In this document: piece after piece, positions 11,490 to 39,245 of the stretch
How the letters are laid out: each line of letters starts with the position of its first letter
Numbering within the stretch: position 1 is the first letter of the stretch
Virus record (IMG/VR): IMGVR_UViG_3300031746_000054
Span: 1-42,366 of that record
Length of the DNA stretch: 42,366 nucleotides
Strand: one strand, 5' to 3'
Source of the DNA: a virus
Notes under the pieces: generated by a model
What the model saw: the letters and a program-made list of their open reading frames with translations, nothing else
What the model was told of the DNA's origin: nothing
Database searches by the model: none
Translations under genes and position numbers: made by a program

Positions 11490-14400
11490 GTTCTGATTCC
11501 CTGTCGTAAATAGATTGTGTCTACCATCGCTTGGCCGACCTTATGAATATCAGCTTCTTCTCGGACTACCATCTCGGCGACATTGACGTTAATTGATATG
11601 GTCTGCGCCGGAGCCGTTTGATTCATCGGAGTTATCAGAGCTGCAAGTTTATCCAGAGGAAAAACAACTTCGGGCATGGCCGGAGTTTGTCGCTCGGTCA
11701 GCAAAGAAGCCAATGAGCTGAAGGCCTCTCGGACTTCGCGCACTATCGGCACTTGCCCCTCTCTCAGTAATGCCGCCAGTTCAGCCAAAGGAAACGAGGA
11801 TTCGGAAACGCGCGGCTGCTTCTGCGTTGTTATCAAACCTGCCAGCTTGTCGAGAGCAACACGGAGTTCGCCCACTATTGGAGTTTGGGTATCACCTATC
11901 AAGGTTGCAAGTTTATCAATGGGGAAAGTAGTCTCTGTCGTTGCTGGGGGTCCGCTTTCTTTTATTGCGGTCGCCAGACCGTCGACCGGGAAACTCAAGT
12001 CGGGTGCCGCTGGCGGTTCCTGTTGCTTCAATAAAGTGGCTAACTCATCGAGTGTAGAGCGTATCTCGCGCGCAAGAGGAGCCTGCTCGTCTTTCAATAT
12101 AGCTGCCAACTCGCGTAAAGGAAAGGGCGGGGCTGGAGCTTGGGCAGTCTGCCCTCCTGACAAAACGCTCGCGAACTTATCTAGCACGCTGCGGACTTCT
12201 TGTAGAATGGGGTTCTGCGCATCGCTCAACTTCCTCGCCAGCTCGTCGATGGGAAACACGAAGTCTGGCAGCTTGGTCGATTGTTCATCCCTCAAGAGAG
12301 CAGCTAGTTTTTCGAATGGGAATACTATCTCTGGCAGCTTGGTACTGACCATACCCTTCAAAAGATTGCCCAACTTGTCAAGAGGCAAGACGGCTTCTGG
12401 TTCTTTCTCACCCACAAGCGCGAGCGTGGGCTTCAGAGCGATAGCACCATGCTGCATAGGGGTAACGTATGCTCCATAGCCGGGAACCTCAGTAGGAGAA
12501 GTTGGAGCTGGAACATTAGGAACATTTGCCGCCGCTGTCGCTGCCGCCTCTGCTGCTGCCTTTACTCTATTAAGTTCATCGGTTAACTCTCGCGCTGCCT
12601 GGCGGCAATAATATAATTTATTCTCTAAGCCCACAATTCCTTCAGCTTGCGTTTTTAGAATTTCGGCAACCTTATCATTCAAGATATCAAGTTGAGTCTG
12701 TGTGTCCTGTACTGCGTCAGCATAATCCTCTACAATCACCTTCTGGGCATTGAGTGCTGTGTTGGCTTCAATCAGTCCGCCCGGGCCATTTATAGCATTG
12801 TCTAACCCCGCACTTAACTCACCACCCGGAGCCAGGGATGCTCCAATCTTTTGAATCTCGTCCCAGACAGTACCAAAGATGGTCTCTCTATTAGCGCCCT
12901 GTATATCCTCCACACCCTCTTTTAATTTATATAATTGAGGCCCGAATTCCACATTCGCCTGTGCTTCAAGTATATCTTTTCGATTTTCAAGGGCAGCAAT
13001 CTGAGCATCAATATCCTCGGTGTTAAACCCCTGAAACTCTAGTTGTAGTTTTGTTACCTTTAATGGGTCAATTTTTTCTTGGATTGCTTGTATCTGGTCT
13101 TCGTATGCCTGCATCCCCTCCAGCCTAGGACTGGAGAGTTCGGCAAGCCTATCGTTGGCTGCAGATATAGCGTCTTCGAAATCACTTACTTTCTTCTCTG
13201 CATTACCATAGGCTGTTTGCAGTTTCTTTAGTTCGCCCTCTGCGTCTGCAAGGCTTTTCTTCTGAGTCTTCAGGGTGCTATTCAGGTCATCAATTTCGTC
13301 TTTATATCCTGCAGCGTTTCTCTCGGTATAGTCATATAAATCGCGTGCTTCTTCAAGTTCAGCGTTAAACCCTTCCTGTTTATCAGTAGCCGCTTCTATA
13401 TCCCTGGTTAATGCCTCTTGCTGTCTCTCATTTAGAGCCTGCGCCTCCGTGAGAGCCTTGGTCGCTGCTGCCGCTTCCTTCTCCGCATCAGTCAGTTCCC
13501 TGACAGGCGTAGGCGCTCCGGTGAGAATCCGCATAAGCCAGCTTACACCATCGCCAATAATCTTGAATGACTTCTGAAAGAAACTCGTTATCTTCTCCCA
13601 ATGGCGCCATAGAGCAATCCCAGCCGCAATAAGTAAACCGATGGCGGTAATTATTATGCCGATAGGGTTAGCATTCAGCGCAAGATTCAAAAGCCATTGA
13701 GCTGCTGTAAGTGCGGTCAGGACTCCACGCAGGGCAGTACCAGCAATCGTGAGTGCCCCGAGAGCGATTTTATGCAGGATGAGCTGAACTGTCGAACTCA
13801 TTACGATAGCCTTGAATCCTGTCCAGAGCTGAATCATCTTCGGCCATTGGCCTATCATTATCAGAGATGTGCCAATTACCAGGGCTAAAGCTCCAGTCAG
13901 AACAGCCAACGCGACCCCCATAACTTTTATGGGTCCGGGCATCTTGTTAAACCTCGATATAAGTGTACTGAGGGCGTTCGCAAGAAACTTGACCGCTGGT
14001 AAAAGCACATATCCGATAGATTCCATCAACGCATCTATGGAGTTCTTGATTTGAGCCATCGCCCCGGCTGTGCTCTTGCCATACTTCTCGGCGGTTCCAC
14101 CGACCCTTGCCTGTATTGCGGCAAGGGCTTCACTCGCGCTGGCTCCCTCTTTGAGCACAATTCCATAACGAGCCAGCATCGTAGTATTGCCTTGTGCTAC
14201 CTTACCTATCAGCATAGAGGCTGTGGAGAGATTGATTCCCTTTGCCGCGGCTAGGTCAAGCGCGAGGGGTAAGAGCTTTAAGGCTTTCTGGTAATCACCA
14301 GTGATATTAACGAGCTGGATTAACGATTCGCGTAACTCATCTTCATTGACGGCAGTAGCTTTCTCAGTTTCCGTAAGATATCTTTCAATGTCTCCTCTTA

Positions 14401-14686
14401 CATTATCATAAGCAACTCCTACATTACTTAATACTGATGAGAGCCTGATAAGCTGCGCTTCCTCATCGGCAGCTCCCTTAACGGCTGACCCCAAGAACGC
14501 GGTCATCGCCGCGCCAATTCCAGTTATGGCGACGCCTACCTTGGTCATCTCTGCCGAAGCAAGCGCAGTTTGCTTTGATTGCTCCTGCAGACCTTTGAGG
14601 TCGGCATTGAGCTTGGCCATATCAGAATCCCACGAGCCAAAATCAATGCCTAGCTTTAATAGAGCATCGCCAATACTGATAGGCAT
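11486..14686 (-). CDS. Tail tape measure protein (1066 aa)
   Basis: The length, a helical N-terminus (DALLKLGIDFGSWDSDMAKL), the hydrophobic segments at about 255-285 and 310-360, and a coiled-coil middle (about 400-560) are typical of tape measure proteins, which set tail length and pass into the host envelope. The region KYGKSTAGAMAQIKNSIDAL is a common tape-measure signature. At about 1066 residues and 0.15 nm per residue the tail would be near 160 nm. The C-terminal third is unusual in holding tandem repeats (11625-12405). It follows a LuxR-type gene and precedes the hub gene. Confidence 0.92.
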   Translation of the reverse strand: MPISIGDALLKLGIDFGSWDSDMAKLNADLKGLQEQSKQTALASAEMTKVGVAITGIGAAMTAFLGSAVKGAADEEAQLIRLSSVLSNVGVAYDNVRGDIERYLTETEKATAVNEDELRESLIQLVNITGDYQKALKLLPLALDLAAAKGINLSTASMLIGKVAQGNTTMLARYGIVLKEGASASEALAAIQARVGGTAEKYGKSTAGAMAQIKNSIDALMESIGYVLLPAVKFLANALSTLISRFNKMPGPIKVMGVALAVLTGALALVIGTSLIMIGQWPKMIQLWTGFKAIVMSSTVQLILHKIALGALTIAGTALRGVLTALTAAQWLLNLALNANPIGIIITAIGLLIAAGIALWRHWEKITSFFQKSFKIIGDGVSWLMRILTGAPTPVRELTDAEKEAAAATKALTEAQALNERQQEALTRDIEAATDKQEGFNAELEEARDLYDYTERNAAGYKDEIDDLNSTLKTQKKSLADAEGELKKLQTAYGNAEKKVSDFEDAISAANDRLAELSSPRLEGMQAYEDQIQAIQEKIDPLKVTKLQLEFQGFNTEDIDAQIAALENRKDILEAQANVEFGPQLYKLKEGVEDIQGANRETIFGTVWDEIQKIGASLAPGGELSAGLDNAINGPGGLIEANTALNAQKVIVEDYADAVQDTQTQLDILNDKVAEILKTQAEGIVGLENKLYYCRQAARELTDELNRVKAAAEAAATAAANVPNVPAPTSPTEVPGYGAYVTPMQHGAIALKPTLALVGEKEPEAVLPLDKLGNLLKGMVSTKLPEIVFPFEKLAALLRDEQSTKLPDFVFPIDELARKLSDAQNPILQEVRSVLDKFASVLSGGQTAQAPAPPFPLRELAAILKDEQAPLAREIRSTLDELATLLKQQEPPAAPDLSFPVDGLATAIKESGPPATTETTFPIDKLATLIGDTQTPIVGELRVALDKLAGLITTQKQPRVSESSFPLAELAALLREGQVPIVREVREAFSSLASLLTERQTPAMPEVVFPLDKLAALITPMNQTAPAQTISINVNVAEMVVREEADIHKVGQAMVDTIYLRQGIRT
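11625..12405 (-). repeat. Tandem protein repeats in the tape measure C-terminus
   Basis: Residues about 761-1020 hold at least eight copies of a 22-residue unit with core FPLDKLAALL, alternating with a related unit (PIVREVRE, then SLASLL). Pairs of the two types make a 43-44-residue super-unit. The pattern is of amphipathic helices joined by Pro-rich turns. Such repeats are not part of the usual tape measure core. Confidence 0.8.
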
Positions 14687-15186
14687 TATATTTTCCCCCG
14701 CTTTAATTGAGGCATTTTAACCTCATATTGACCATCCTGCATTTGCTGTATCATGGCAAATGCGTCCACAAGACCTAATTTGTGAGCTACCAATACTGCA
14801 ACTAAACGGCTACCGATTCCGACCTCTATTCCTAATTTACCGAATATACGGGAGCAATGATTCTTGGCAGTCTGCTCGGACATTCTCAACTCATAGCCTA
14901 TCTGTTTATTGGACAAACCTGCCGACATACATTTCACCACTTGAAGCTCACGTGGAGTCAAAGCAACTTCAAGCACATTGTTCTGAGTGTACTGCCGCAC
15001 CGCTAACAAATACATAGCCCTCTCTACTGTGCGTACTCCCATCGCCTTCACACCCTTGCCCACATACTCAGTAAATGTTTTCCGGGTGCAATCCATTTCT
15101 ACTGCTGCCTCAGCCCTTGTTTTACCCTCAGCCAATAGCGCCAGAGCATTTTTGAATCTAGGGTGCATTGACTTCTTGAGTAACAT
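14686..15186 (-). CDS. LuxR/GerE-type transcription regulator in the tail module (166 aa)
   Basis: Residues about 73-138 are a clear GerE/LuxR helix-turn-helix: ALTPRELQVVKCMSAGLSNK, then QIGYELRMSEQTAKNHCSRI and FGKLGIE. The first 65 residues (ALLAEGKTRAEAAVEMDCTR, KTFTEYVGKG) look like a second, degenerate copy of a similar fold. There is no receiver or ligand domain. ATG 15186 overlaps the preceding stop (TGATG), so it is translationally coupled to the tail chaperone. A regulator between chaperone and tape measure is unusual; it may adjust late transcription. Confidence 0.85.
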   Translation of the reverse strand: MLLKKSMHPRFKNALALLAEGKTRAEAAVEMDCTRKTFTEYVGKGVKAMGVRTVERAMYLLAVRQYTQNNVLEVALTPRELQVVKCMSAGLSNKQIGYELRMSEQTAKNHCSRIFGKLGIEVGIGSRLVAVLVAHKLGLVDAFAMIQQMQDGQYEVKMPQLKRGKI

Positions 15187-15446
15187 CACTGATGCTCCCA
15201 CTTTATGTTATCGCCCATCTGCCTGAATAGCTCCATATCCGAGACTGTTTGGTTCGGATTACCGCCGGACTTAGCCGCTTCTATAAGTTTATCTTTGCGG
15301 ATAACGAGCTTCGCAATCATTAAATCAAGCAGTTCGTCCGTCCAGTTTGCAACTATGTAGTCCGGCGGCAATCCCCATTCGGTCAGAAGGAACTCAAAAG
15401 CCTCGCCTATCGTGAGAGTTTTGTCAGGCTCTCGCTCAGGCTTTTT
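15186..15446 (-). CDS. Tail assembly chaperone, frameshift extension (GT-like 'T' part)
   Basis: This frame has no good start of its own. It is open in the -1 frame relative to the chaperone gene from about 15446, and reads KTLTIGEAFEFLLTEWGL and then PPDYIVANWTDELLDLMI, a pattern typical of the T part of phage tail chaperones. Expression is expected by -1 slippage from the gene at 15407-15808, giving a longer minor product. The stop overlaps the LuxR start. Confidence 0.75.
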   Translation of the reverse strand, partial: KKPEREPDKTLTIGEAFEFLLTEWGLPPDYIVANWTDELLDLMIAKLVIRKDKLIEAAKSGGNPNQTVSDMELFRQMGDNIKWEHQ

Positions 15447-17547: not shown

Positions 17548-17873
17548 TACCGTACAAGCCTCAGATAACATTCCTTGTGGTGGTTCTCGACGGTTCCTGC
17601 CTTAATGGGAATCACAGATAGAACTTCGTAGGTTACGCTATCTACTATCACTTGGTCGCGCTCGGATATGTCCACATCGCCGATGAATAATTTGGTATCA
17701 GAGATAACCACTTCCGCACCTATCTTGAACTCTCGCGCTTGCGCCCCTGAGAGCCTGCAGAGCTGGCCCGTCAGGTGGTCGTGGTATGTCTTTACTGGCT
17801 GGCCGTAGGCATCGGCCGTAGCCGCAGCGTATTGCCTTACAGTACAGCTAGAAACCAGCAGGTCGTTAAACAT
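17547..17873 (-). CDS. Head-tail stopper / joining protein (108 aa)
   Basis: The beta-barrel pattern (VSSCTVRQYAAATADAYGQP, RLSGAQAREFKIGAEVVISD, VTYEVLSVIPIKAG) fits SPP1 gp16/HK97-type stopper proteins that close the connector. ATG 17873 lies within the end of the HNH gene, eight bases before its stop, showing that the HNH gene was inserted at the very start of this gene. Confidence 0.75.
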   Translation of the reverse strand: MFNDLLVSSCTVRQYAAATADAYGQPVKTYHDHLTGQLCRLSGAQAREFKIGAEVVISDTKLFIGDVDISERDQVIVDSVTYEVLSVIPIKAGTVENHHKECYLRLVR

Positions 17874-18444
17874 GGGGATTCTCCATGAGTTTAAGATTTA
17901 GGTTGCGAATCTGTTCAAGCAATAACTTGTTCTGTATGCGCAATAGCCTTATATCTTTGCGCATCTCACAGTTTTGACAAAAACAAGTTTTCAAATTATG
18001 GTTAGCCTGCGATACTAATTGTAAGTTCTCTATTCGATTATCGGCTTTATCGCCGTTAATATGATGAACATGTTCGGTTGGTGCTAGACATCTTCCCAAA
18101 TGTTTAGCCATAACCAGACGATGCTCTTGGATTAAATTGCTTCTACTAGCCATGGGATAGTATGGACTTTCCCTATAAAGATGAACCCAAACGTAACCAT
18201 ATTTATCAGTAAAGGTGTGGTCAACGCTATGTCGAGTGGCAAAACTTTGCTTTAATCTAGTTGCTTCACTCGGAACTATACCTTTACGAGTACAACGAAA
18301 ACATCGCTTTATGCGAGGTCGGCCCCCAACGATAGAAACCCATCGTTCCTTACCGCAGATTTCGCAAGGGAGCCAGATAAACTTTCTGTATTTTTCTCGT
18401 TGCCCTATTTCTAGGCCTTTCTTAATTTCGCCTATGGTAAACAT
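17866..18444 (-). CDS. HNH homing endonuclease (192 aa)
   Basis: The HNH_3-type motif is at about residues 123-145 (EHVHHINGDKADNRIENLQL, VSQANHN). An N-terminal treble-clef-like part has LPCEICGKERW and CFRCTRKG. A C-terminal coiled coil (RLLRIQNKLLLEQIRNLN) follows. Free-standing HNH genes of this kind cut cognate DNA and spread between phages. It separates two adjacent neck genes and overlaps the next start. ATG 18444 is preferred over the start at 18486, which would overlap the upstream gene. Confidence 0.88.
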   Translation of the reverse strand: MFTIGEIKKGLEIGQREKYRKFIWLPCEICGKERWVSIVGGRPRIKRCFRCTRKGIVPSEATRLKQSFATRHSVDHTFTDKYGYVWVHLYRESPYYPMASRSNLIQEHRLVMAKHLGRCLAPTEHVHHINGDKADNRIENLQLVSQANHNLKTCFCQNCEMRKDIRLLRIQNKLLLEQIRNLNLKLMENPHV

Positions 18445-18457
18445 CGAATCTGTTACC

Positions 18458-18823
18458 TCACACCGAGTATTGGCTGTCCGTATCACCTATAAGGTCGAGC
18501 GTTGCCCAGCCCAGAGCCGGAGTGACATTAGCCGCTGCAGCCGCATCTGCAAGGCTCTGGCGATAACTCTGCCTATATTGTTCCGCGAGAGCTTGCTTAT
18601 TCGAGACTGATTTCTTGGTATAGGCATAGTCTCCCACCTTCTCGGACTCCAAGCCTTCGGAAAGATTTGCTGCCCACGATTCCAATGCTCGAGCTGCGGC
18701 AAGCAGAACAATATCACCTTCCATCGTCAAGAAAGCCTGTATCTGGCCGTCGGAGAAGTGCCGAGCCTCCTCTGTATTATCGCTTACCAGAAGTCGTACC
18801 AAGTCGATATTAGATATTGTCAT
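18458..18823 (-). CDS. Head-tail adaptor protein (121 aa)
   Basis: The pattern LVRLLVSDNTEEARHFSDGQ, then IQAFLTMEGDIVLLAAARAL and ESWA fits the adaptor family (HK97 gp6/SPP1 gp15) that docks below the portal. It opens the neck module. The start overlaps the BppU-like gene's stop by four bases. Confidence 0.8.
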   Translation of the reverse strand: MTISNIDLVRLLVSDNTEEARHFSDGQIQAFLTMEGDIVLLAAARALESWAANLSEGLESEKVGDYAYTKKSVSNKQALAEQYRQSYRQSLADAAAAANVTPALGWATLDLIGDTDSQYSV

Positions 18824-19143
18824 GCGCTTTCCTCCACAACGACTCGTACAGTTTTCGAGCCTTCTTTGCTGATTAGGGCATCATAGATTCTGATCTTTCC
18901 CAAGTAAGTTCCAGCCACATTGAAATCTCCAGCAACTATATCAACGTCTACTTCTCCGGCAATACCAGAAACAAGGTCCACACCAACATTCCACAGAATA
19001 GTACCGGGAGCATACTCACTCCAAACCACGAAGTTGAAAGTTAGACCTGCGGCAGAGAGGTCAATAACCACATCATCATCGTTAGTCACAATTACCCTGC
19101 GCTTGTAACCGAAGTCACCCTTATTAAATCTTAGTTCCTGCAT
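18820..19143 (-). CDS. BppU N-terminal-like protein (107 aa)
   Basis: The sequence RRVIVTNDDDVVIDLSAAGL, TFNFVVWSEYAPGTILWNV and DIVAGDFNVAGTYLGKIRIY matches the beta-sandwich of the BppU N-terminal domain of lactococcal phage baseplates. ATG 19143 follows AGGAGG. It stands alone without a fibre domain, directly after the giant repeat protein, so it may attach that protein to the virion; this is inference. Confidence 0.7.
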   Translation of the reverse strand: MQELRFNKGDFGYKRRVIVTNDDDVVIDLSAAGLTFNFVVWSEYAPGTILWNVGVDLVSGIAGEVDVDIVAGDFNVAGTYLGKIRIYDALISKEGSKTVRVVVEESA

Positions 19144-19151
19144 ACAGCCTC

Positions 19152-22100
19152 CTAGATGCGATTAGCTCGCCGCACCTGAATATCGTGTTCCTTCTTCCAT
19201 GTCGCAATCGTATGTTCTTTAAGCAGAGTCTCTATCATCTTGCTCCACCAGCGAACCGTCCTGCGGAACTGTCCAAGCTCACCTGTAATTCCTACCATGG
19301 CTTTTATAATCTGGAGTCGGCCAATGTCTGCCATCATGGTTTGATTGAAGGCGACCTGTCCAATCTGAACCAAAACAACCTGCCCCTTATGTTCTCCAAT
19401 TACGTACTCGAAGGCCATACCATTCTCGGCCAGAATAACCTGAACCAGAGGGTCTTGAATCTTGATGAGTGTACCATCGAGTGTGTGCAATCCGAACAGA
19501 ATTTGGAGCTTGGCAAGGTCATTCAATGTTGCTATATCAGTTATTCCCTGCGCTAGGAGAATAATCTGACCTAACGCCTCGATAGGTGTAGCTGGAATAT
19601 AGACTATCGTAATGGTCTGGTCTACGATGATTAAGATAAGGGCGCCTGTCTCCGAGCGCGTGGCAAGGTCAGTATTGCCTTGAACTATAATGAGAATCTG
19701 GCCAGTAGCACCCAAGAAAGTAGCTAAATCTGTCTCTCCCTGCGCTGCCAGAATCTCCTGAAGTTTAGCCGTATCGTTGAACACGGCATAGGGCGTCAGG
19801 ATGCCGTTCTCGCCCAACACTACTTGAAGATGCGGGGCTTCGAGCCAAGTCGCATTGTCGCTCTCGGCATGGTCAACGACTATAGTTTGGAGTTTACTCA
19901 ATTCGGCAGCAGCCCGCGCATCGGTTTCTCCATGTGTGACCAGAATCTCTTGAACTTTACTAAGGTCATTGGCTGTTAAGATTCCCGAAACTCCATGAGC
20001 CACAGAGACTATAATGAGGGCTATTTCCTCGCCACCTGCCATGAACACATCGTAGACTAGCTGGATAACGTCAATGATTTGCAGCCTCCCTGTTTCGAGG
20101 AAGATTGCAAGGTCTGAAACTCCGAGAGCAGCAAGGAGTGTGACTACTGCCCCCAGTTCTGCCAAGATACGAGTCTCTGTCTCTCCATCTACTGCCAAGA
20201 TAATTTGCAGTTGACCTGTCTCGCTGCGGGATATACCAGAGGCTATCCCCTGTCCGGCAAGAATGACCTGTAATCGTTCCGTATCAAGCCAAATAGTATT
20301 GTCAACTTCCGCTTGAGTAGTGAGGATTATTTGGAGCTTGCCCAACTCTACCATAGGTTGCAGGTCGGATTCTCCCTGAGCTACTAAGACGTCCTGAACC
20401 TTATCACGCTCATTCGCCGTTTGCATATCTAGGATTCCCTGCGATACACTAATAATGATGAGCGCGACTTCTTCCCCGCCTGCCATGAACAGGTCGGCGG
20501 TTCCCTGTTCAGCCAAGATTAGTTGCAACTTTTGGGTGTCGAGTCTTATCGCTGTATCAATCTGTCCGTCTTGTGTGAGAATAAGAATTGAGGAGATAGC
20601 TTCGAGATAATTAATCTGATATGTGATGTCATTAGCTGCGAGAATGACCTGCAGCAATTCGGTATCAATGCGGAGCATACCTGCCACGATGTCGTGCGCT
20701 GCGGTTATGGTTATGGGCTTCCCGGTATCGAGGAATGTCACTAGGTCAGAGTTTATCTGCTCGACCATTATCTCAAGAGCTTTGTCTAACTCCGACCTGA
20801 CAGCAATCTCCGAAACTCCGTGAGTTGCATAGATTATTTGCAGTTTATCGAGTTCGTTTCGAGTTATGAGAGTGGTTAGTCCCTGCGCGGCAAGAATGAT
20901 AATATCTTTGCCAATATCAGTCATGGATTGGAGGTCGGCCTCGGATTGCACCGCGAGAATTATCTGGAGCTTGCCTGTCTCCATCTTGTAGGCTTCGTCG
21001 ACTGACAAACCTTGCGTGACGAGAATGGTCTGGATGCGTCCTAAGTATTCCCCCTCGTCATAACTGTAGAGCTGGTCCATCATAATAACGATGTCACTCG
21101 TTCCAGCTTGCACGAGAACTACTTGCTCCTTGCCTCTCTCGTCCGCGGCAGGAATCCAGATTATCAGATGGTCCCATTCTCCAGTTTCAACAAGAACCAC
21201 TTGGAGCATTTCAAGGTGATAGAACTGGCCGATATTTCGCTGGCTGACATTTACCACGATAATTTGTTCGTGATTGTCCAGATATGTAACGACTGTGCTA
21301 ACACCCTGCTCGACGATAATAATATCAAGCAGTTCGAGGTCATAGTAAGCACGCCAGTCTCCCTCACCGCTTATCGCAAGAACGACCTGCTCCAGAGAAG
21401 TCTCAGCAAAGAGATAGCCGCCTACTGGCAAGCCCATCTCGACGAGAATTATCTGCCCGGTAGGTTCGGGCATTATGTGAGAAATCTCTATCGCCTGAGA
21501 AGCCCTAATATAAATGAGCTTTATCAGCAAGTCGAACATTTCCTGAGTATCGATATTGCCCTGTTCGACTGTAATGATTTGAGTATTGGCTGTATCGTAG
21601 AAATCAACGCGACTGGTAACACCTTGGGTGACTATGATTAGCTGCGTAAGTCCTAACTCCACTCGACTCAGCCCATCGAGTTCTCCCTGACTGACTATCA
21701 GGATTTGGGGCTTTGCCGTATCAAGAAATATCGCAAGGTCAGCTTCGTCTTGTCCTACTAGAATCGTTTGTGGTTTTGCGGTGTCGAGGAATGTGCCGAT
21801 AACAGAACTTCCCTGCGCTACAATAACGTCAATGATTTTGCCTGTTTCAAGTCTAGTGATTAAACCAGTTTCCCCCTGGGCTGCGAGAATTAACTGCAGG
21901 AGCGCGAGGTCGCCTCGCGTAAGCTGCGCACTAATGCCTTGCTCACAAGATATAACCTGTAAATTGGCTGTCTCTATTAGGATGATAAGAACTGTGGGCA
22001 GGTCGTGGTCTACCAACACTACCTGTGTCTTTTCAGTTTCGAGTCGAGTCATCAGAAGGATAATCGCTTGTTCGGCTACTAATACCTGTATCTTGGCAGT

Positions 22101-22340
22101 TTCCGAGACTATGCGTTGTTCAGTAATGCCTTGCGCGGCTATTACTATTTGGGTCTTAGCGGTCTCCGAACGTGTAACTTGTTCGGTCTCGCCTTGAGCC
22201 GTGACGATAGTAACTTCAAGGCCAGTCTCGACATAGACTACAAGCGGAACCGCATAGCCACGTTCTGTGAGATGCCCAATTACAGCAAAACCGAACTCAT
22301 CTATATCGGTTATTATGGCATATCCAAACTCGTCGAGCAT
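19152..22340 (-). CDS. Giant 21-residue-repeat protein (1062 aa)
   Basis: The N-terminus has three 11-residue copies (LDEFGYAIITD, IDEFGFAVIGH, LTERGYAVPLV). Residues about 38-1005 are about 45 tandem units of 21 residues with consensus ETxKLQxILAxQGETDLxTR. A few units have inserts, for example FMAGGEE twice. The basic end (RRTVRWWSKMIETLLKEH) is not repetitive. Alternating hydrophobic residues in LQxILA suggest a beta-solenoid or stacked fibre, but the period is not that of a family I know. No signal peptide or membrane segment is present. Its place after two secreted proteins and before a BppU-like gene suggests a long fibre or surface protein. Confidence 0.9.
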   Translation of the reverse strand: MLDEFGYAIITDIDEFGFAVIGHLTERGYAVPLVVYVETGLEVTIVTAQGETEQVTRSETAKTQIVIAAQGITEQRIVSETAKIQVLVAEQAIILLMTRLETEKTQVVLVDHDLPTVLIILIETANLQVISCEQGISAQLTRGDLALLQLILAAQGETGLITRLETGKIIDVIVAQGSSVIGTFLDTAKPQTILVGQDEADLAIFLDTAKPQILIVSQGELDGLSRVELGLTQLIIVTQGVTSRVDFYDTANTQIITVEQGNIDTQEMFDLLIKLIYIRASQAIEISHIMPEPTGQIILVEMGLPVGGYLFAETSLEQVVLAISGEGDWRAYYDLELLDIIIVEQGVSTVVTYLDNHEQIIVVNVSQRNIGQFYHLEMLQVVLVETGEWDHLIIWIPAADERGKEQVVLVQAGTSDIVIMMDQLYSYDEGEYLGRIQTILVTQGLSVDEAYKMETGKLQIILAVQSEADLQSMTDIGKDIIILAAQGLTTLITRNELDKLQIIYATHGVSEIAVRSELDKALEIMVEQINSDLVTFLDTGKPITITAAHDIVAGMLRIDTELLQVILAANDITYQINYLEAISSILILTQDGQIDTAIRLDTQKLQLILAEQGTADLFMAGGEEVALIIISVSQGILDMQTANERDKVQDVLVAQGESDLQPMVELGKLQIILTTQAEVDNTIWLDTERLQVILAGQGIASGISRSETGQLQIILAVDGETETRILAELGAVVTLLAALGVSDLAIFLETGRLQIIDVIQLVYDVFMAGGEEIALIIVSVAHGVSGILTANDLSKVQEILVTHGETDARAAAELSKLQTIVVDHAESDNATWLEAPHLQVVLGENGILTPYAVFNDTAKLQEILAAQGETDLATFLGATGQILIIVQGNTDLATRSETGALILIIVDQTITIVYIPATPIEALGQIILLAQGITDIATLNDLAKLQILFGLHTLDGTLIKIQDPLVQVILAENGMAFEYVIGEHKGQVVLVQIGQVAFNQTMMADIGRLQIIKAMVGITGELGQFRRTVRWWSKMIETLLKEHTIATWKKEHDIQVRRANRI
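19325..22229 (-). repeat. About 45 tandem 63-bp coding repeats with a 444-bp higher-order repeat
   Basis: The repeats are diverged in DNA but keep the 63-base phase for most of the array. A higher-order copy is seen: the segment starting FMAGGEEVAL and the segment starting FMAGGEEIAL are 148 residues (444 bases) apart, and their following units match in order (QTANERDKVQ/LTANDLSKVQ, then NTIWLDTERL/NATWLEAPHL). The array grew by unit and block duplication. Confidence 0.85.
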
Positions 22341-22341
22341 C

Positions 22342-25335
22342 TTAGTAAATCATTCCCCCGCCTGATACAGACACATTGCGTCTATGGACTCCCAGAACAG
22401 TGAAGGTTATCGTCACAGTCTCGCTATCCCCCGCAGGGTCAGTTTCGAAGGTAAGCGTGGCTGTGTAAATGCTCGCAGTAAGAGAATTGCCTGTTTCCAG
22501 TTTCAACTCCCATAATACTTCCTCATCGGCAGCAACAGTCGTAGAGAAATCCTGGGCTGCATTAGTCAGGATAAGACCCTCACCTGAACCTTGCCCTGCA
22601 TAGAATAGGGTTACTCGTACTTCCTTGGCTGCTGGGGAGGTTGAGACGATGTTGATGCTCGTACCATCGGAGAAGTCCGTAATCTTGGCTGTAATGGCAT
22701 CTAGGGTAAAACTAGAGTGGCTGGTCGTATTCCCTATACATTCTCCAGCATCTATAGTCGCTCCTGGGTCTGCTACGTTGCCCCATACGGTAGTGTTTGG
22801 CTGCACGACACCGTAGTTGTGGGAACTGGGAGTGTTGGAGATGTCTACAAGAAGATTAAGCTGTACCTCATTGCCATAAACCCAAATTCCTGTTGAATCA
22901 CACCCCCCTGCTCTAAAATAAATAGTATGAAATGTGAAATTACCACTATAATTGAAAGTCTGACCTTGACCATAGCTAACAACCCCACTCCCCCAATTAC
23001 CAGCATAAGTCGTGCTGGCATGATTGGTATTTCCAGGGTCTCCACGACTCAAAGAGTCCCACACAAACGCAACTTCAGTAAAATTACCTTGAGGAATACC
23101 GATAGCATAAGGATAAGACCTAATAGTGGAAATATATGAAGTATAGCTAGTCCATGAAGTTATCAGGTTATAAATCAACTTCAAGTTAGAATTATAATTC
23201 ACGACTGGTCGAGGTTCATCATAAAGTGCAGGTGAGTTAGTAGTGATATCAGTAACCTTAGCCCAGGTTGTGCCTCCGTCTGTAGTGTGCCACTCCTGGA
23301 TGTTAGATACAGTCCCACTCTTAACTCCAATATAAACATGAGTAGTATCATAGGGGTCAATAAATACCCCCGAGTTATATGCTATGAGGTTTCCATAGGT
23401 AACAGTGTTGACTCCTGTAGTGTGAACCGACCAGCCAGAATCATAACGCGCCCACTTTGCTAGACCAGTTGTAGCATCAACGTACTCGACAAGAGATATT
23501 ACGGGACTACCAGCACCATCTAACTGTATATCATCTACCCATGTACCTGTATGGGTATAAACCACTTCTGCCTCTCCCACCTCCACAGGAAGTGTAATTG
23601 GTGTCGAACTTCCTTGCGTTCTCCACGTAGCAAGATTATCTGCGGAATACACATAGTAAGCATTGGAGTAATAAGGAGTGACGCCTAAAGGGGCGATATG
23701 CCAAGCGATGTGAGTTGTATTCCCATTAGATTTAACACTAGGATAACACCAATAATTAGTTCCGAAGTTCACTACTGTAACAAGACTTCCCCAATTCTCC
23801 CCTCCATCACTTGTAAGCCTATATCCTATGGTCTGAATGTCAGAACCCGCATAATGTTGCTCAAATAACGCTTCTTTACCATCTCCTATATGAATCATCT
23901 GCCGATACGTTCCAGTAACCGTATCTAAGGTTTGCGTACTCGACCATGCAGATATATCTTCTATCGCAGAACTTCTCCGAACATACAAATAATTCTTATC
24001 ATCTCCCCACGATACCAAAATATACCCTGCATAGGTTCCTGAAGGAATAACATGAATGTCTGGGCTATTGTGAGCGTTTGCATCGGTATTGTTACCTATA
24101 TAGACAGGTGTGCCAAGTAATCCTGAATCATGGTCGTAAAAGTTCACACACACAGTACCGTTGCCGATAGACGTATCAGTCCAAGCAAAGTAAGTCCTAT
24201 CGTTTGTGCCAGCATATCTTTCCGCAGGAAAGCGCGCCTTAAGCAGACTTGCCCCATTGTGGATGGTAGCCCCTAAATCAACAATATTACCATTTAGTGT
24301 CGCAGAATAACTGGTAATGCTTGTTGCCGATAGTGTTGTTACCAGGGACGGAGATATTGGTAATACGAAGGTAACTTCATCACCGTATGAATACCCATCA
24401 GCATTGGTCCCGCCTGCTCTGACATAGTAAGTTAATCCTGTTGTGAGATTACCTATGACAGGAGTATAACTAAATGTAGCTCCAACCCCATAATTACTTG
24501 TATTACCTATGTAGTAATTCGCATATCCAGCACTGGCAGGGGCTAAATGTGCAGGAGAAGAACGACTTACAATATCCCACAGGAAGGCGGGGTTGGTTAT
24601 ATTCCCAGTACCGATACCAGTTACATTACCATTAAAAGTAGCTGACGTCGAACTTATTGAAGATACGGCAAGGGTAGAGACCGTTGGATAATAACTATAA
24701 GTAACTGCCAACTTCGGCATATATGCTTCATACCCTGTAGCTTCCGAGCTATAGAAATACGGCTCAGAAGTTCCTCCTGTCTCCGTAGTATAACTCAGTC
24801 TAACGCTAAGAACATCGCTGCGATTTGCAATAGCATCTTGCACCAAAGCTAAAACATTAAAAGTTACCCATCCTGTACTAGCATGGATTGTATTCCCCGT
24901 AGCCTGGTCTGTATCTGTAACAGTAGGGGCTGTATTCCAAGTAACTGTTGACTCTGCCCATGCCGAAGTTGTTCTCTTGCACTTAATTTCCTTAGCGGCA
25001 TCAGCGGCTCCTTCATATTGGTAGAGATAAACACTCATTGTGGCGGCAGTAACCGTTGCTTCATCTGGAATCGTTGAGGTAGAGAATTTCAAGAGGTCAC
25101 GGAAGACAAAACCAGCACCATCATAAAGCAACATATACACACCCGAACCATAGTTGGTAGTAGGTGCATACTGGAAAACCATTGCATCATCTGTGGAGGG
25201 CTGTATCGTTGTATCTGTTGCCTCTGCCACCTCTGCCCCAAACTGCCACTGCACAGGCAGCACAGAGGCTAGGACTGCCAAGACCATACAGAGGGTAAAT
25301 AGTGCGTACCAGTTCTTTTTTAATTTATTCATCAT
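22342..25335 (-). CDS. Secreted multidomain protein: DNRLRE-like, FN3-like, Asp-box segments (997 aa)
   Basis: The N-terminus has a Sec signal (NWYALFTLCMVLAVLASVLP, cleavage near AEVAEA). Residues about 42-210 match the DNRLRE/CBM96 pattern (TIQPSTDDAMVFQYAPTTNY, FRDLLKFSTSTIPDEATVT). Fibronectin-like segments with an AFLWD or AFVWD start appear near 240-325 and 750-830. Between them lies a sialidase-like propeller part with Asp-boxes (TSDGGENWGS, TTDGGTTWAK). The last 150 residues are another beta sandwich. A phage protein with a signal peptide of this size is rare; surface modification or adhesion is possible. No catalytic residues could be assigned. Confidence 0.8.
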   Translation of the reverse strand: MMNKLKKNWYALFTLCMVLAVLASVLPVQWQFGAEVAEATDTTIQPSTDDAMVFQYAPTTNYGSGVYMLLYDGAGFVFRDLLKFSTSTIPDEATVTAATMSVYLYQYEGAADAAKEIKCKRTTSAWAESTVTWNTAPTVTDTDQATGNTIHASTGWVTFNVLALVQDAIANRSDVLSVRLSYTTETGGTSEPYFYSSEATGYEAYMPKLAVTYSYYPTVSTLAVSSISSTSATFNGNVTGIGTGNITNPAFLWDIVSRSSPAHLAPASAGYANYYIGNTSNYGVGATFSYTPVIGNLTTGLTYYVRAGGTNADGYSYGDEVTFVLPISPSLVTTLSATSITSYSATLNGNIVDLGATIHNGASLLKARFPAERYAGTNDRTYFAWTDTSIGNGTVCVNFYDHDSGLLGTPVYIGNNTDANAHNSPDIHVIPSGTYAGYILVSWGDDKNYLYVRRSSAIEDISAWSSTQTLDTVTGTYRQMIHIGDGKEALFEQHYAGSDIQTIGYRLTSDGGENWGSLVTVVNFGTNYWCYPSVKSNGNTTHIAWHIAPLGVTPYYSNAYYVYSADNLATWRTQGSSTPITLPVEVGEAEVVYTHTGTWVDDIQLDGAGSPVISLVEYVDATTGLAKWARYDSGWSVHTTGVNTVTYGNLIAYNSGVFIDPYDTTHVYIGVKSGTVSNIQEWHTTDGGTTWAKVTDITTNSPALYDEPRPVVNYNSNLKLIYNLITSWTSYTSYISTIRSYPYAIGIPQGNFTEVAFVWDSLSRGDPGNTNHASTTYAGNWGSGVVSYGQGQTFNYSGNFTFHTIYFRAGGCDSTGIWVYGNEVQLNLLVDISNTPSSHNYGVVQPNTTVWGNVADPGATIDAGECIGNTTSHSSFTLDAITAKITDFSDGTSINIVSTSPAAKEVRVTLFYAGQGSGEGLILTNAAQDFSTTVAADEEVLWELKLETGNSLTASIYTATLTFETDPAGDSETVTITFTVLGVHRRNVSVSGGGMIY

Positions 25336-25961
25336 CCTGCCCTCGGATACCTGAACTGAAGTAGGTTAAAATACACCGTTGTATTGATTGTGCTATCAGA
25401 CTCGTCAATCAGGAATCTCAGCACCAGTGCCTCGCCCCTTTGCGGTGAGTTAGCTGGAACAAGAGAGTTGGCGAACGTAACTATATTCATCTTGTTTGCG
25501 CCATTGGAAGTGTCCGCTTGAACTACCGCAGAGCTATAAGCAACACTCACTAAATCACCATCTCCTACCGCTTTAGCCTGTACCTCAATCTCGATAGTGC
25601 CTAAGTCTGTATCATCAGTTATCCAGCAGAACCGAAGGTCGCTGAGTGCGCCGCCATTAGCATAGTCGGCTGGTAGCCATGCACTCCACTCGAAGGATTC
25701 GTCTACATCATCAGACAAATCAAACGAACCCATCCACAGCGTAGTAGCTGCCGTTCCCGCAAACTCTACAGCAGCACCGTCCGAGCCTCCCGCAGTCTCA
25801 GAGGGAGCTATACCACCGCCAGATACTCCGAAATATCCCCATTGGGCAGCTTGAGGTTGGGGCTGATTGACGATAGCGCTAACGATAGGACTGATAGCAA
25901 AGATAAGCAAGCACAGAAGCACACACAGAAATACTATAAGCAGCTTCGATAGCTTATCCAT
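25332..25961 (-). CDS. Secreted or membrane-anchored beta protein (209 aa)
   Basis: ATG 25961 follows GGAGG by five bases; earlier starts overlap the holin-like gene and lack a ribosome site. Residues 4-32 are a signal peptide or anchor (LSKLLIVFLCVLLCLLIFAI). The rest is a beta-rich soluble domain (SFDLSDDVDESFEWSAWLPA, then EALVLRFLIDESDSTINTTV) of the kind seen in phage head-fibre or carbohydrate-binding sandwiches. The gene is coupled by overlap with the 997-residue gene. Function unknown. Confidence 0.7.
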   Translation of the reverse strand: MDKLSKLLIVFLCVLLCLLIFAISPIVSAIVNQPQPQAAQWGYFGVSGGGIAPSETAGGSDGAAVEFAGTAATTLWMGSFDLSDDVDESFEWSAWLPADYANGGALSDLRFCWITDDTDLGTIEIEVQAKAVGDGDLVSVAYSSAVVQADTSNGANKMNIVTFANSLVPANSPQRGEALVLRFLIDESDSTINTTVYFNLLQFRYPRAG

Positions 25962-25962
25962 A

Positions 25963-26205
25963 TTAACCTCCATTCTGCTTTCGCGCTGCCCTCTCGCCGA
26001 ACCAGAACGCCACAAGAGTATTGCCAATGGCAATACCAGCTATTGCAGCCTCATTGTCGTGCATCCAGAGAGCACCATAGCAAATTATGGTAAACATTAC
26101 TCCACCGCCTACTACGGTCAGAAATACCCTGACTGCGCTCTTGGTTCGGATGAGTTCTTCCTTCATGTGGTGTTCTAAGCCGTTGCCCCCATTCGGTGTA
26201 GTCAT
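25963..26205 (-). CDS. Two-helix membrane protein, holin-like (80 aa)
   Basis: ATG 26205 follows AGGAGG. Residues about 26-47 (VFLTVVGGGVMFTIICYGAL) and 53-70 (AAIAGIAIGNTLVAFWFG) are membrane segments, with a short basic end (ERAARKQNGG). Size, topology and charge suit a small holin. The neighbours are secreted proteins rather than a lysin, so it could also help export or anchor them. Confidence 0.55.
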   Translation of the reverse strand: MTTPNGGNGLEHHMKEELIRTKSAVRVFLTVVGGGVMFTIICYGALWMHDNEAAIAGIAIGNTLVAFWFGERAARKQNGG

Positions 26206-26215
26206 GGCAGGCCTC

Positions 26216-26545
26216 CTATGCTTCTTTAGTTATTACGCCATCCCAAAAGCCATATCCTGTAGTGCCGCTTACATTCTTGACTTTCAGATAATCGTTATAG
26301 GTAACGTGAAATACGACGGATAGCATACCGTTAGATAAACCGAGTGCAGCCATAGTATTGTAATCTGCAATCAGCATATCACTCGTACCATCACAGCGGT
26401 ATATTTCTACTTTGGTTGGGTCTGTACCGGGGAAAGCCCAGCCGATATTATGGACTGAGGCTTCCTGTCCGTTCGTTGGCCTTATGGTCATAAGTGCATC
26501 ATCGGCAACCGATACCTTATCTGTAAATATATCTCCTCTGGCCAT
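26216..26545 (-). CDS. Virion-like protein of unknown function (109 aa)
   Basis: The sequence (DKVSVADDALMTIRPTNGQE, VHNIGWAFPGTDPTKVEIYR, YNDYLKVKNVSGTTGYGFW) is a small beta sandwich of the kind found as phage decoration or fibre parts. ATG 26545 follows GGAGG; a stable hairpin (26560-26585) lies just before the ribosome site. Confidence 0.65.
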   Translation of the reverse strand: MARGDIFTDKVSVADDALMTIRPTNGQEASVHNIGWAFPGTDPTKVEIYRCDGTSDMLIADYNTMAALGLSNGMLSVVFHVTYNDYLKVKNVSGTTGYGFWDGVITKEA

Positions 26546-26559
26546 AACTGCCTCCTGCT

Positions 26560-26585
26560 TGAGAGGGGGATTGCTCCCCCTCTCA
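26560..26585. repeat. Perfect hairpin before the 26545 start
   Basis: An 11-base perfect inverted repeat (26560-26570 with 26575-26585) with a ttgc loop. On the minus strand it lies just upstream of the ribosome site of the 26216-26545 gene and has no T tract, so an mRNA-protecting or processing role is more likely than termination. Confidence 0.6.
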
Positions 26586-26632
26586 CCACGCTATACTTTA
26601 GGTTACTCGGATTCGAATTACTCTGACAAGCC

Positions 26633-26660
26633 GAGAGGGAAGGCTCACACCTTCCCTCTC
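26633..26660. repeat. Perfect hairpin after the 26685 gene
   Basis: An 11-base perfect inverted repeat (26633-26643 with 26650-26660) with a six-base loop, 25 bases after the stop of the 26685-27284 gene. Its stem (gagaggga..) is similar to that of the hairpin at 26560. No T tract follows, so it may stabilise the 3' end of the capsid mRNA. Confidence 0.6.
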
Positions 26661-26684
26661 TCTAAAGGTTGGGGATTAGTTCAA

Positions 26685-27284
26685 TCATTCAGAAAGGCCA
26701 ATGTACATACTTGCTTGAAGTTTATCTCCTGTCAGCAGAGTCCTGCTCGCGCTCAGAGCCTTTGTGCAAATCAGATGGTCGTCATCACCATCTACTACAG
26801 CGGTAGCATCGGTGACGAGGTTAAGGTTGAGAACTGCCGTGAAGTTCTCACCTGCCGTCCACTCCACCGTCTTTGAATCAGCTCTGTAGTACGCGGCTGG
26901 CTGGTTGATATAGAAGTCTTGACCACTCAGACCAGTACCAGCCGTTGACAAAGCGATACGAGCACCACCCGAAAGAGCCTTAACCTCGCCCGATAGAGTA
27001 GCCAAGGTATCGGCCTCTGCCGGGACTGCACGCGCATCAAGCGCAAGATAGATGTTTGCTGGAGGTGCGCCATAATTGCTCATACCTGTCGCGAAGAAGG
27101 CAGATAAGAGGGCCATTTCTCCAGTGTCTACGAGGATATTGCCTTCGGGATGAGGCTCAATCCACAGATCCTCGTAACCTCCGACCTCGCACATACCCTC
27201 TGGCGAGATTCTACACATCGGCCGCAGATGTCGGACGTCGTAAAAGGGCTCCCACTTTAACATTGTCGCAAGTTTTTCTTTCAT
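26685..27284 (-). CDS. Virion structural protein (199 aa)
   Basis: After a 40-residue N-terminal part (MLKWEPFYDVRHLRPMCRIS) the sequence NILVDTGEMALLSAFFATGM, then IYLALDARAVPAEADTLATL and SGEVKAL follows the same pattern as the tip protein at 9596-10060. The C-terminal half is beta-rich. It probably forms a capsid-attached or fibre-like structure. It is flanked on its 3' side by the stable hairpin at 26633-26660. Confidence 0.65.
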   Translation of the reverse strand: MKEKLATMLKWEPFYDVRHLRPMCRISPEGMCEVGGYEDLWIEPHPEGNILVDTGEMALLSAFFATGMSNYGAPPANIYLALDARAVPAEADTLATLSGEVKALSGGARIALSTAGTGLSGQDFYINQPAAYYRADSKTVEWTAGENFTAVLNLNLVTDATAVVDGDDDHLICTKALSASRTLLTGDKLQASMYIGLSE

Positions 27285-27320
27285 TTATGTTTTGTCCTCC
27301 GTTGTGATTATTATTGGCTC

Positions 27321-27545
27321 CTAAGTCTTTTCGACGTAGACTTTGCCGAGTGCCTTTGACAGAGCTTCCCTCTGGTCGGGTGATAGTGTGGCGATCAGCT
27401 TGTCGGCTCCTGCCTCTGCTATCCTCTTGGAACGCTCCACCTGAATCTCACGCTGCTTCTGTTTGAGTTTAAGCTGCGCGTCCATGCAAGCCGCCAACTC
27501 GGCATCCAATTCGGTTAGGGTCATTTCCCCGAAAGTCTTGGGCAT
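27321..27545 (-). CDS. Small coiled-coil protein (74 aa)
   Basis: ATG 27545 follows GGAGG by eight bases, preferred to ATG 27560. The protein is helical and charged (MTLTELDAELAACMDAQLKL, KQKQREIQVERSKRIAEAGA). It sits between virion genes. Function unknown; a head or assembly accessory is possible. Confidence 0.6.
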   Translation of the reverse strand: MPKTFGEMTLTELDAELAACMDAQLKLKQKQREIQVERSKRIAEAGADKLIATLSPDQREALSKALGKVYVEKT

Positions 27546-27575
27546 TGTTTTTACCTCCATTTGATTTTTAGGATT

Positions 27576-27627
27576 GGCTGGGATAGGTTGTGGGGAAGGA
27601 GGAAGCCACAGTTTCTCTACCCCAGCC
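27576..27627. repeat. Nested inverted repeat between virion genes
   Basis: The seven-base arms ggctggg (27576-27582) and cccagcc (27621-27627) enclose a second short pair (tgtgg/ccaca), forming a long hairpin between the 74- and 102-residue genes. It is the third stable element in the 26.5-27.7 kb stretch. Confidence 0.45.
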
Positions 27628-27632
27628 TGATT

Positions 27633-27941
27633 TCATTTCCAGCTCACCGTTATATCTCCTAGAGTTGTCGCTGCATCAAACGCAATATATAACCCATTTA
27701 AGAACTCGGCATCATAAATCAGGGTTGCCGGGACTACAAACAACGCTGAGTCCATCGCTATAATAGCGATGATATCAGCCGTCACTCCTGCTGCCGAGTC
27801 ATAAACGGTTACAACTCCTCCCGCGTGTGGGTCTGGTCGGTTTATGGTTATAGAATGGAGTATCCCTCTTGACGTTGATACCTGGGCTGTCGTGATAAGA
27901 TGCGTCCATCTAAAGCCATATTCTATGATTGGATTTGCCAT
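27633..27941 (-). CDS. Virion-like protein after major capsid (102 aa)
   Basis: This beta-rich protein (RGILHSITINRPDPHAGGVV, TVYDSAAGVTADIIAIIAMD, EFLNGLYIAFDAATTLGDIT) has the pattern seen in many phages directly after the major capsid gene, where small proteins decorate the shell. ATG 27941 follows AGGAGG. No formal family assigned. Confidence 0.65.
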   Translation of the reverse strand: MANPIIEYGFRWTHLITTAQVSTSRGILHSITINRPDPHAGGVVTVYDSAAGVTADIIAIIAMDSALFVVPATLIYDAEFLNGLYIAFDAATTLGDITVSWK

Positions 27942-27969
27942 ACCTACCTCCTGACTACAACCTTAATGG

Positions 27970-29115
27970 TTAGACATGGCCTCCCATATAGCAGGCTCTC
28001 CAGTCGAGCTTGCAGGCTCCGGCCACAACCCGAACTCGGTAGAACACATTGTCAGTGGCAAAGTCGCCAGAGAAGGGGCTAATCGCTCCGCCGCCAACAG
28101 TCGCCTTGTCCGACATCTTCATACAGATTTCGGGGTTCTCGTGTCCTGCCAGATGTGCAAACTCCAGGGCTGCTATGTCGCCAGGGTCAGAGAACAGGTA
28201 CCAACCTCGCTGTCCGTTGGTCGCGTCGAAGATGGGCAGATAGGGGTCAACGATGAGTTGCAATCCCCACTGTGCTATGACGTTGTTCGTCGGATATGGC
28301 ACAGAGCCGATAGTTCCGTCGATGTCAATGCTTTCTGCCAGCCACATCTTGTTTGCAGAGGTTAGAATCTGTCTTGCCGTGAACTCCAAGCCGGGAGGAA
28401 CCACAAGGAACTTTGGCCGATTGTAAATCGGCTCTCCGCCTACATCGGTCAAGCCCTGCATGAACTGAACGCCTGCCTCCAGCGATATGATGCTCAGGGC
28501 AGTTACCACGCAGTTCAGCGCGCCTGCTGTAGTGTGGTCGAACAGGTTGCCTGCTGCGTGAGTTCCGACGTCATTGCAGTACAAGCCTGTTATGATTCGG
28601 TGCTCGGTTCTCGCAGCGGCCTTGGCAAATCTCTCCGGTGTGTCCTTCAAGGCGTTCAGGTCGTCATTGATAAGGGCCTCCCAGCTAATGTCGAACTGGC
28701 GCCCGTATTTGTAGACCTGAAGGTTATATCGTGCCTCGTCCCGGTCGGAAGCAGGATATTCGCCTTTCTCCGGCACTTGCTCAAGGTGCTGGTCGCCTCC
28801 GCTTATGGCAAACCTGCGGTTCACTCGGAAGTCCCTCACCGTGGACATCTTCGTAAACGCCTTCCACACGGGGTCGGTCGCCTTATATGAGGCGAGAAGT
28901 TGTCTGTCCAGCACATCGCCGAACAGATAAGGGAAGTCAGAGGTTGTCAGCGCCTCGCGCATAAGGAACTCGTGCTTGTGGCGCGGTAGACCCAGCTTAT
29001 TCGAGAGCAGGTTTATGGTTTCGGCTAACCTCTTATCCCAATCCTCGGGTCTTTTGGTCTCGTGGAGTGACTGATAACCAGACCAGTCCTCCATGACTTT
29101 CATCAATTCTGGCAT
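27970..29115 (-). CDS. Major capsid protein, Mu gpT-like (381 aa)
   Basis: The segment FPYLFGDVLDRQLLASYKAT, then DPVWKAFTKMSTVRDFRVNR, and YGRQFDISWEALINDDLNAL match Mu gpT-type major head subunits with the HK97 fold. PKFLVVPPGLEFTARQILTS and QLIVDPYLP are further family marks. It follows protease-scaffold and decoration genes in the canonical order. ATG 29115 follows TAGGAGG. Confidence 0.9.
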   Translation of the reverse strand: MPELMKVMEDWSGYQSLHETKRPEDWDKRLAETINLLSNKLGLPRHKHEFLMREALTTSDFPYLFGDVLDRQLLASYKATDPVWKAFTKMSTVRDFRVNRRFAISGGDQHLEQVPEKGEYPASDRDEARYNLQVYKYGRQFDISWEALINDDLNALKDTPERFAKAAARTEHRIITGLYCNDVGTHAAGNLFDHTTAGALNCVVTALSIISLEAGVQFMQGLTDVGGEPIYNRPKFLVVPPGLEFTARQILTSANKMWLAESIDIDGTIGSVPYPTNNVIAQWGLQLIVDPYLPIFDATNGQRGWYLFSDPGDIAALEFAHLAGHENPEICMKMSDKATVGGGAISPFSGDFATDNVFYRVRVVAGACKLDWRACYMGGHV

Positions 29116-38474: not shown

Positions 38475-39245
38475 TCACCATATACCTTGAGTTGGGGTAT
38501 AGAGATAATGTCGCAGGTCGGCTTTTATGTAATACTTCTTGCCGAGCTTTTCGAGCAGGTCTTTGGTATCATGCGCGAACTTCCACCAGTCGATTTCTTT
38601 CACCCGGTCTTTGTCCTGCTGGGACAGGGGCAGGGGGTTGACATGGTTGAACTTGCCGACCTTGAACTCATCGACAAACGGAGCCGCGAGCTGGATTAGG
38701 TCGAGGGTCTGCTGGGGGTCAATGACTGGCTCCAGACTTACCCACGTGGGAATACCCAACTCGTGGGCTTCGCGGATAGCTTCCATGCGGTTTATGGGGT
38801 CGGCGGCATTTGGTTCCCAATGGAGTGAATCTTGCCTGTCAGCGAAAGTGAGCGTAGTGCCGAAGAAGTCTTTGTCAGATAGGAACCCGAAATCGCCTGC
38901 GGCTAGTGTCCCTGCTTTAGTGAGAATATTGACGCGGTAGCCGTACTTGTGGAGTATGACTATGGCATCTCTGGTCAACATATCGTAGGCATTTATGGGC
39001 TGGTAGGGGTCGCAGGTGAAACAAAGCAGGACAGGACCCGAACCGTTTGATTTGGCGGCTTCTTTCTCTATACGGCTGAGAATGTCAGGCCGAGCTTTCG
39101 CCCGAGCAAATTCATCTCTGGTTTTTTTGAGTACATCGGGAGCGTAGCAATAGAGGCAACCGTGGCCACAGCCTTCATAGAGATTGCAGGCCAATGGTGC
39201 GTATTCGAGGGCTTTGCCTTTGGGTTCATAGATTACATTTGACAT
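38475..39245 (-). CDS. Radical SAM protein, SplB (COG1533)-like (256 aa)
   Basis: The iron-sulfur motif CGHGCLYC has Cys26, Cys30 and Cys33 (C-x3-C-x2-C) from the chosen ATG 39245, in the pattern YAPLACNLYEGCGHGCLYCY. FTCDPYQPIN and TRDAIVILHKYGYRVNILTK are typical of the SplB-like radical SAM group, which includes spore photoproduct lyase and unknown nucleic-acid enzymes. It starts inside the end of the ParB-domain gene (13-base overlap), so the two are coupled. No spore-former need is implied; DNA modification or repair is the more likely use. Confidence 0.85.
   Translation of the reverse strand: MSNVIYEPKGKALEYAPLACNLYEGCGHGCLYCYAPDVLKKTRDEFARAKARPDILSRIEKEAAKSNGSGPVLLCFTCDPYQPINAYDMLTRDAIVILHKYGYRVNILTKAGTLAAGDFGFLSDKDFFGTTLTFADRQDSLHWEPNAADPINRMEAIREAHELGIPTWVSLEPVIDPQQTLDLIQLAAPFVDEFKVGKFNHVNPLPLSQQDKDRVKEIDWWKFAHDTKDLLEKLGKKYYIKADLRHYLYTPTQGIW

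Follow-up and report, generated by a model that had tools for sequence, protein, structure and literature searches.

A diverged array of 21-residue repeats in a variable accessory slot of an uncultured phage, a putative virion adhesin stalk

The window analyzed here, i.e., the whole 42,366-nucleotide stretch of IMG/VR record IMGVR_UViG_3300031746_000054, encodes a repeat protein, P0001, near the end of an accessory slot bounded by the major capsid and head-completion genes (Table 1), which confirms the accessory-block placement given by an initial annotation. Like the other late genes, which are all co-directional, P0001 is read from the minus strand. Its gene is followed by the head-completion gene closing the slot, with the 107-residue protein gene intervening, as is also the case in the related loci L086, L095, L147 and L150. 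On the other side, the stop codon of the 997-residue protein gene lies one base before the ATG of P0001, and this spacing is identical in a sister phage. Conservation of the TAA-N-ATG junction, together with a TGA that closes the P0001 frame a short way ahead of its ATG, makes coupled re-initiation a better fit than a frameshift, and the two genes are probably translationally coupled; a frameshift fusion of P0001 with the upstream gene was rejected. The 997-residue protein is likely the ectodomain partner of P0001.

Table 1. Features of the slot and of the repeat protein P0001 (window positions).
Feature	Position	Strand	Basis
Accessory slot between capsid and adaptor genes	18824..27969	minus	gene order in relatives
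Major capsid protein, other slot border	27970..29115	minus	gene order in relatives
997-residue protein with leader-like N-terminus, CBM96/DNRLRE domain and BNR_4	22342..25335	minus	domain matches
Repeat protein P0001, 1062 residues	19152..22340	minus	ORF read; orthologue L087:3832-7017
N-terminal segment of three 11-residue motifs (residues 1-33)	22242..22340	minus	sequence
Repeat array, 21 residues per unit (residues 42-1020; net charge -84)	19281..22217	minus	cyclic profile
Basic C-terminal tail (residues 1021-1062)	19155..19280	minus	sister comparison
107-residue protein between P0001 and the adaptor gene	18820..19143	minus	sub-threshold BppU_N match
Conserved head-completion/adaptor-type gene closing the slot	18458..18823	minus	role assigned from position

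The initial annotation had placed P0001 between secreted proteins and a BppU-like protein. A protein with a secretion leader does adjoin it: the adjacent late-block proteins at 25332-26033 and 22342-25335 both have signal-peptide-like N-termini, conserved in the sister phage (L002), and P0001 itself has no leader at its N-terminus. However, the BppU-like label of the 107-residue protein is weak, since PF10651 matched it with E 0.036 and 14.2 bits, below the cut-off of 23.1, and did not match its relatives.

Several other genes of the window were noted. A slot protein at 26685-27284 shows a sub-threshold match to the Pfam Gp80 fibre protein (E 0.0013). An HNH endonuclease gene (17866-18486) separates the adaptor gene from the head-completion genes; in the sister phage, HNH genes are found at two other sites (L002:12145-12684 and L087:8602-9192), and this difference in position suggests that they are mobile homing genes. 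In the tail block, a protein read from its sequence as a LuxR-type helix-turn-helix protein (14686-15201) directly precedes the gene of a tape measure protein (11486-14686) with C-terminal FPLDKLAALL repeats of roughly 22 residues, also present at L087:11264-14464. Upstream of the terminase region, a radical SAM protein (38475-39299) overlaps the gene of a ParB-like protein (39233-40747).

The repeat architecture of P0001 is confirmed at the protein level. The array comprises 46-47 units of 21 residues with the consensus LQIILVAQGETDLATRLETGK (L-Q-I-I-L-V-A-Q-G-E-T-D-L-A-T-R-L-E-T-G-K), in agreement with the estimate of about 45 tandem repeats made earlier for this 1062-residue protein. According to a cyclic profile, 47 units, the first and last being partial, extend over residues 32-1020 with a score of 1128, compared with 7-10 for shuffles; self-similarity at an offset of 21 residues was 0.128, the shuffle maximum being -0.48. 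The exact 21-residue phase described in the initial annotation is thus upheld as a strong periodicity but not as a fully exact one, as about 15 units contain small insertions or one-residue deletions and residues 379-435 are irregular. Two further claims were reproduced: the 11-residue motif at the N-terminus is present in three copies (DEFGYAIITDI, DEFGFAVIGHL and TERGYAVPLVV), and the 444-base higher-order duplication is seen both as DNA families spaced by 444 and, at the residue level, as an offset peak at 148, though diverged. Mean identity between units is 26%, and Tandem Repeats Finder, applied at the DNA level, reported nothing within the gene. Hence, the repeat is old and maintained by selection at the protein level, and a DNA-level tandem expansion as the origin of the array was rejected.

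Within everything searched, the unit occurs otherwise in one sister phage only. Neither Pfam, PHROGs, NCBIfam nor the PDB sequences contained a family matching the unit, and the unit-profile search suggested earlier recovered no characterized family; the earlier statement that the unit belongs to no known family therefore stands. The PHROG search of P0001 gave no match at E up to 0.1. Neither the full-length protein nor unit consensuses or profiles retrieved a homologue from viral contigs, 50,697 phage records, PDB sequences or 393 Dehalococcoidia genomes, the genomes being searched without a positive control. A Pfam match to UPF0180 (E 0.0012, below the cut-off) was judged to be due to chance. 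Among repeat profiles, that of the EAFG repeats found in minor tail proteins came closest, without reaching significance (hhalign probability 3.7%, E 0.012). The unit is thus new to every library searched, while phage adhesins with long stalks of repeats are a known kind.

The single orthologue of P0001 among relatives comes from IMGVR_UViG_3300035701_000058, a phage with a capsid protein 94% identical to that of the window phage; the gene was missed by pattern scans and detected only through a search of whole viral records. This orthologue (1061 residues) is 65% identical to P0001 and also contains 47 units. Comparison of the two genes gave an NG86 dN of 0.26 and dS of 1.18 overall, i.e., a dN/dS of about 0.22. 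Because of this orthologue and this ratio, the P0001 frame is real and under purifying selection, and a chance or unexpressed frame, an eventuality raised by the initial annotation, was rejected. The equal number of units in both phages, the comparison of repeat number proposed at that time, indicates that the length of the array is stable. Identity between the two proteins is uneven along the chain: 76% over residues 1-41, 44% over residues 42-435, 79-84% over residues 627-1020 and 93% over the last 42 residues, the C-terminal tail being the most conserved part.

Conservation within the unit follows a clear rhythm. Positions 1, 3, 5, 7, 11, 13, 15 and 17 have a mean information content of 1.82 bits and those between them 0.78 (p 0.001), while substitutions relative to the orthologue alternate in the opposite sense, 0.18 at the conserved positions versus 0.31 between them (p 0.005); the odd/even split was chosen after the P0001 profile had been viewed, and the substitution test is only partly independent. 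A hydrophobic residue occupies position 3 in 100% and position 5 in 89% of the units. In the structure prediction also envisaged earlier, AlphaFold2 models of six units place strands at the alternating positions in nearly every unit, but confidence was low, with pLDDT 54 from 5 aligned rows, pLDDT 61 from 10 rows, and pTM 0.51. Moreover, AlphaFold2 over-predicts beta-solenoids for perfect repeats (PMC11795689). The P0001 model is accordingly used as a hint only, though its units are diverged and not perfect. Given the alternating conservation, the alternating orthologue substitutions and the predicted strands, a two-strand beta-arch unit is well supported by the sequence; a solenoid or rod of stacked units is an inference.

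It is quite unlikely that the array is instead a low-complexity linker, flexible or helical, whose alternation arises from coding or composition bias. The low-confidence models and the repeat bias of AlphaFold2 would be consistent with such a linker, but the aliphatic positions 3 and 5, the alternating substitutions and purifying selection argue against it. Even less credible is a self-assembling curli-like amyloid, in which units of different chains would stack into extracellular fibrils. The alternating inward residues ending in a Gln and a Gly turn (Q1-I3-V5-Q7-G8) recall the curlin core, and the unit length of 21 falls within the 23 plus or minus 5 of curlin (PMC10192328). FapC and CsgA did appear among the Foldseek matches of the AlphaFold2 model, but at E 1.1 and 6.0, and no match to the PDB or to viral models was significant. 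Besides, no Pfam curlin match was obtained at E up to 1, the turn spacing differs, neither a leader nor secretion genes are present, and one long chain already holds 47 coils.

Relatives were then compared through their slots. They were gathered by capsid protein and include two Dehalococcoidia genome assemblies, so that the host of the window phage probably belongs to Dehalococcoidia. The slot is variable and dispensable in these phages: its smallest size is 57 bp and its largest about 8 kb, with L041 (84 bp) and L046 (about 8 kb) as examples. Of the non-redundant regions that precede the adaptor gene, 71 in all, 20 have a repeat of 18-22 residues at the slot end (z of at least 4.5, all others being at most 3.6). 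By consensus, these repeats form about ten groups without confident profile links, some pairs such as L129/L071 being ambiguous, and the P0001 unit aligns with these slot repeats at an hhalign probability below 1%. P0001 has the largest number of units among them. Most of these proteins carry a domain ahead of the array and an Arg-rich C-terminal tail with a five-residue rhythm behind it; Laminin_G_3, DUF2341 and He_PIG, which are binding-type domains, were found before or inside several arrays. A tail profile built by leaving one family out recovered 10 of the 11 held-out groups at E <1e-3, values that may be optimistic since the tail is rich in Arg. In the same slot, a 913-residue collagen-like GPSGPSGPT protein (L035:3138-5879) occurs shortly after the capsid gene. 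The recurrence of unrelated repeats of about 20 residues in this slot, like the equal-count orthologue and the minus strand, was absent from the initial annotation.

The held-out tail profile did not match P0001 or its orthologue in L087, and the tail is also missing in L086 and L147. Precisely at the loci devoid of this tail (the window, L087, L086/L095 and L147/L150), and at no other fetched locus, the 107-residue protein gene was found; this exclusivity rests on three independent lineages, L095 and L150 being near-copies. The simplest reading would be that the 107-residue protein and the fused Arg-rich tail are alternative base modules. Stand-alone frames of 56-68 residues ending in the Arg-rich pentad tail were also observed at the slot end of two loci (L035:10560-10730 and L134:4530-4736), where other loci fuse the tail to the repeat array. 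The ectodomain is not part of the P0001 chain, a separate gene being located one base upstream. Repeats of similar period elsewhere in these phages match annotated tail proteins: in L157 they match PHROG 13352 (minor tail protein, E 3.5e-62) as well as minor tail proteins of mycobacteriophages, and in L129 a tail protein of a Methylophilales phage.

The place of the gene, the variability of the slot, the carbohydrate-binding partners and the annotation of similar-period repeats elsewhere as tail proteins lead us to consider it moderately likely that P0001 is the stalk, or fibre shaft, of a putative virion-attached adhesin. Each unit would contribute a pair of short beta strands, at positions 1-7 and 11-17, with tight turns linking them, and the stacked units would make a continuous beta-arch rod of about 22 nm if the rise per coil is 0.48 nm. 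The rod would be anchored to the particle by the basic C-terminal tail, possibly together with the separate 107-residue protein, and the CBM96/BNR protein from the coupled upstream gene would supply, or bind beside, a carbohydrate-binding head; the location on the virion, the rod fold, both anchor roles and the carbohydrate target are putative. Several observations count against a stalk. P0001 lacks a fused ectodomain and a pentad tail, the defining ends of its positional equivalents, and its low-confidence fold (pLDDT 61, pTM 0.51) matched no solved or viral fold. In addition, leader-like N-termini are seen on the 997-residue partner and on the product of the preceding gene, and secretion leaders are unusual for virion proteins.

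These leaders leave room for a role at the cell surface, which we regard as unlikely. Under this alternative, the products of 25332-26033, 22342-25335 and 19152-22340 would be exported and displayed on the infected or lysogenic host, for adhesion or superinfection exclusion, with P0001 as a surface scaffold. The maintenance of both leaders in the sister phage would fit such a cargo, as would the CBM96/BNR domains, typical of surface proteins; nevertheless, P0001 has no leader, the slot lies inside the virion gene block, and slot-terminal equivalents with visible starts (e.g., L026, L044 and L056) show no obvious leader by eye. Another improbable alternative, to which we give similar weight, is that the array forms a capsid-bound spike like gp8.5 of phi29, used for weak binding in the environment and not as a receptor-binding tail fibre. 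The slot is dispensable in relatives and follows the capsid gene, and the arrangement in phi29 is alike, gp8.5 being encoded alongside the capsid protein. Yet the annotated repeats of similar period belong to tail proteins, and the stem of gp8.5 is built of helices and not of beta strands. Except for its location, such a head fibre is compatible with the stalk.

With respect to the slot as a whole, we tentatively suggest, at somewhat less than even confidence, that it has repeatedly been filled by stalks made of about ten unrelated beta-arch repeats of 18-22 residues with shared or exchangeable anchors, the coil length being conserved and not the sequence, and that P0001 represents one of these solutions, using an anchor type of its own. 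The presence of many unrelated sequences at one unit length in one slot is more surprising than the novelty of the unit. It provides a testable rule, i.e., a coil of about 20 residues, many sequences and interchangeable anchors, and a recognizable candidate adhesin locus for uncultured Dehalococcoidia phages. Functionally equivalent phage stalks can escape sequence searches, and gene position combined with periodicity finds them. If the rod fold is true, these proteins would offer beta-arch repeats that have diverged naturally and so avoid the artefact of structure prediction on perfect repeats, as well as a source of long single-chain stalks.

Among known systems, P0001 is likened by putative role to gp8.5 of phi29, an accessory fibre that this tailed phage displays on its capsid; gp8.5 is a head fibre of 280 residues per chain, with a helix-turn-helix supercoil as its stem (PMC6542822). 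The curlin repeats of CsgA share with P0001 two strands, a similar length, alternating conserved residues and a Gln and a Gly near the turn. However, P0001 has Q1-I3-V5-Q7 then G8 with a 3-residue turn, whereas curlin has a 4-residue X-G-X-X turn (PMC10192328), and P0001 differs from CsgA by its phage context and by lacking a secretion signal and a Pfam curlin match. The EAFG-repeat minor tail proteins (PHROG 13352; mycobacteriophages, L157 and L116) have a unit of about 20 residues that aligns with that of P0001 in one consistent register, but they are encoded in the tail-tip region and P0001 in the slot. Finally, the slot-terminal repeat proteins (L085, L118, L129, L148, L124 and L086) have units of mostly 18-20 residues compared with 21, unrelated to that of P0001 by detectable sequence, and they usually carry binding-type domains, whereas P0001 has neither a fused ectodomain nor a pentad tail; they are nonetheless alike in gene position, in a repeat of 18-22 residues and in a basic C-terminus.
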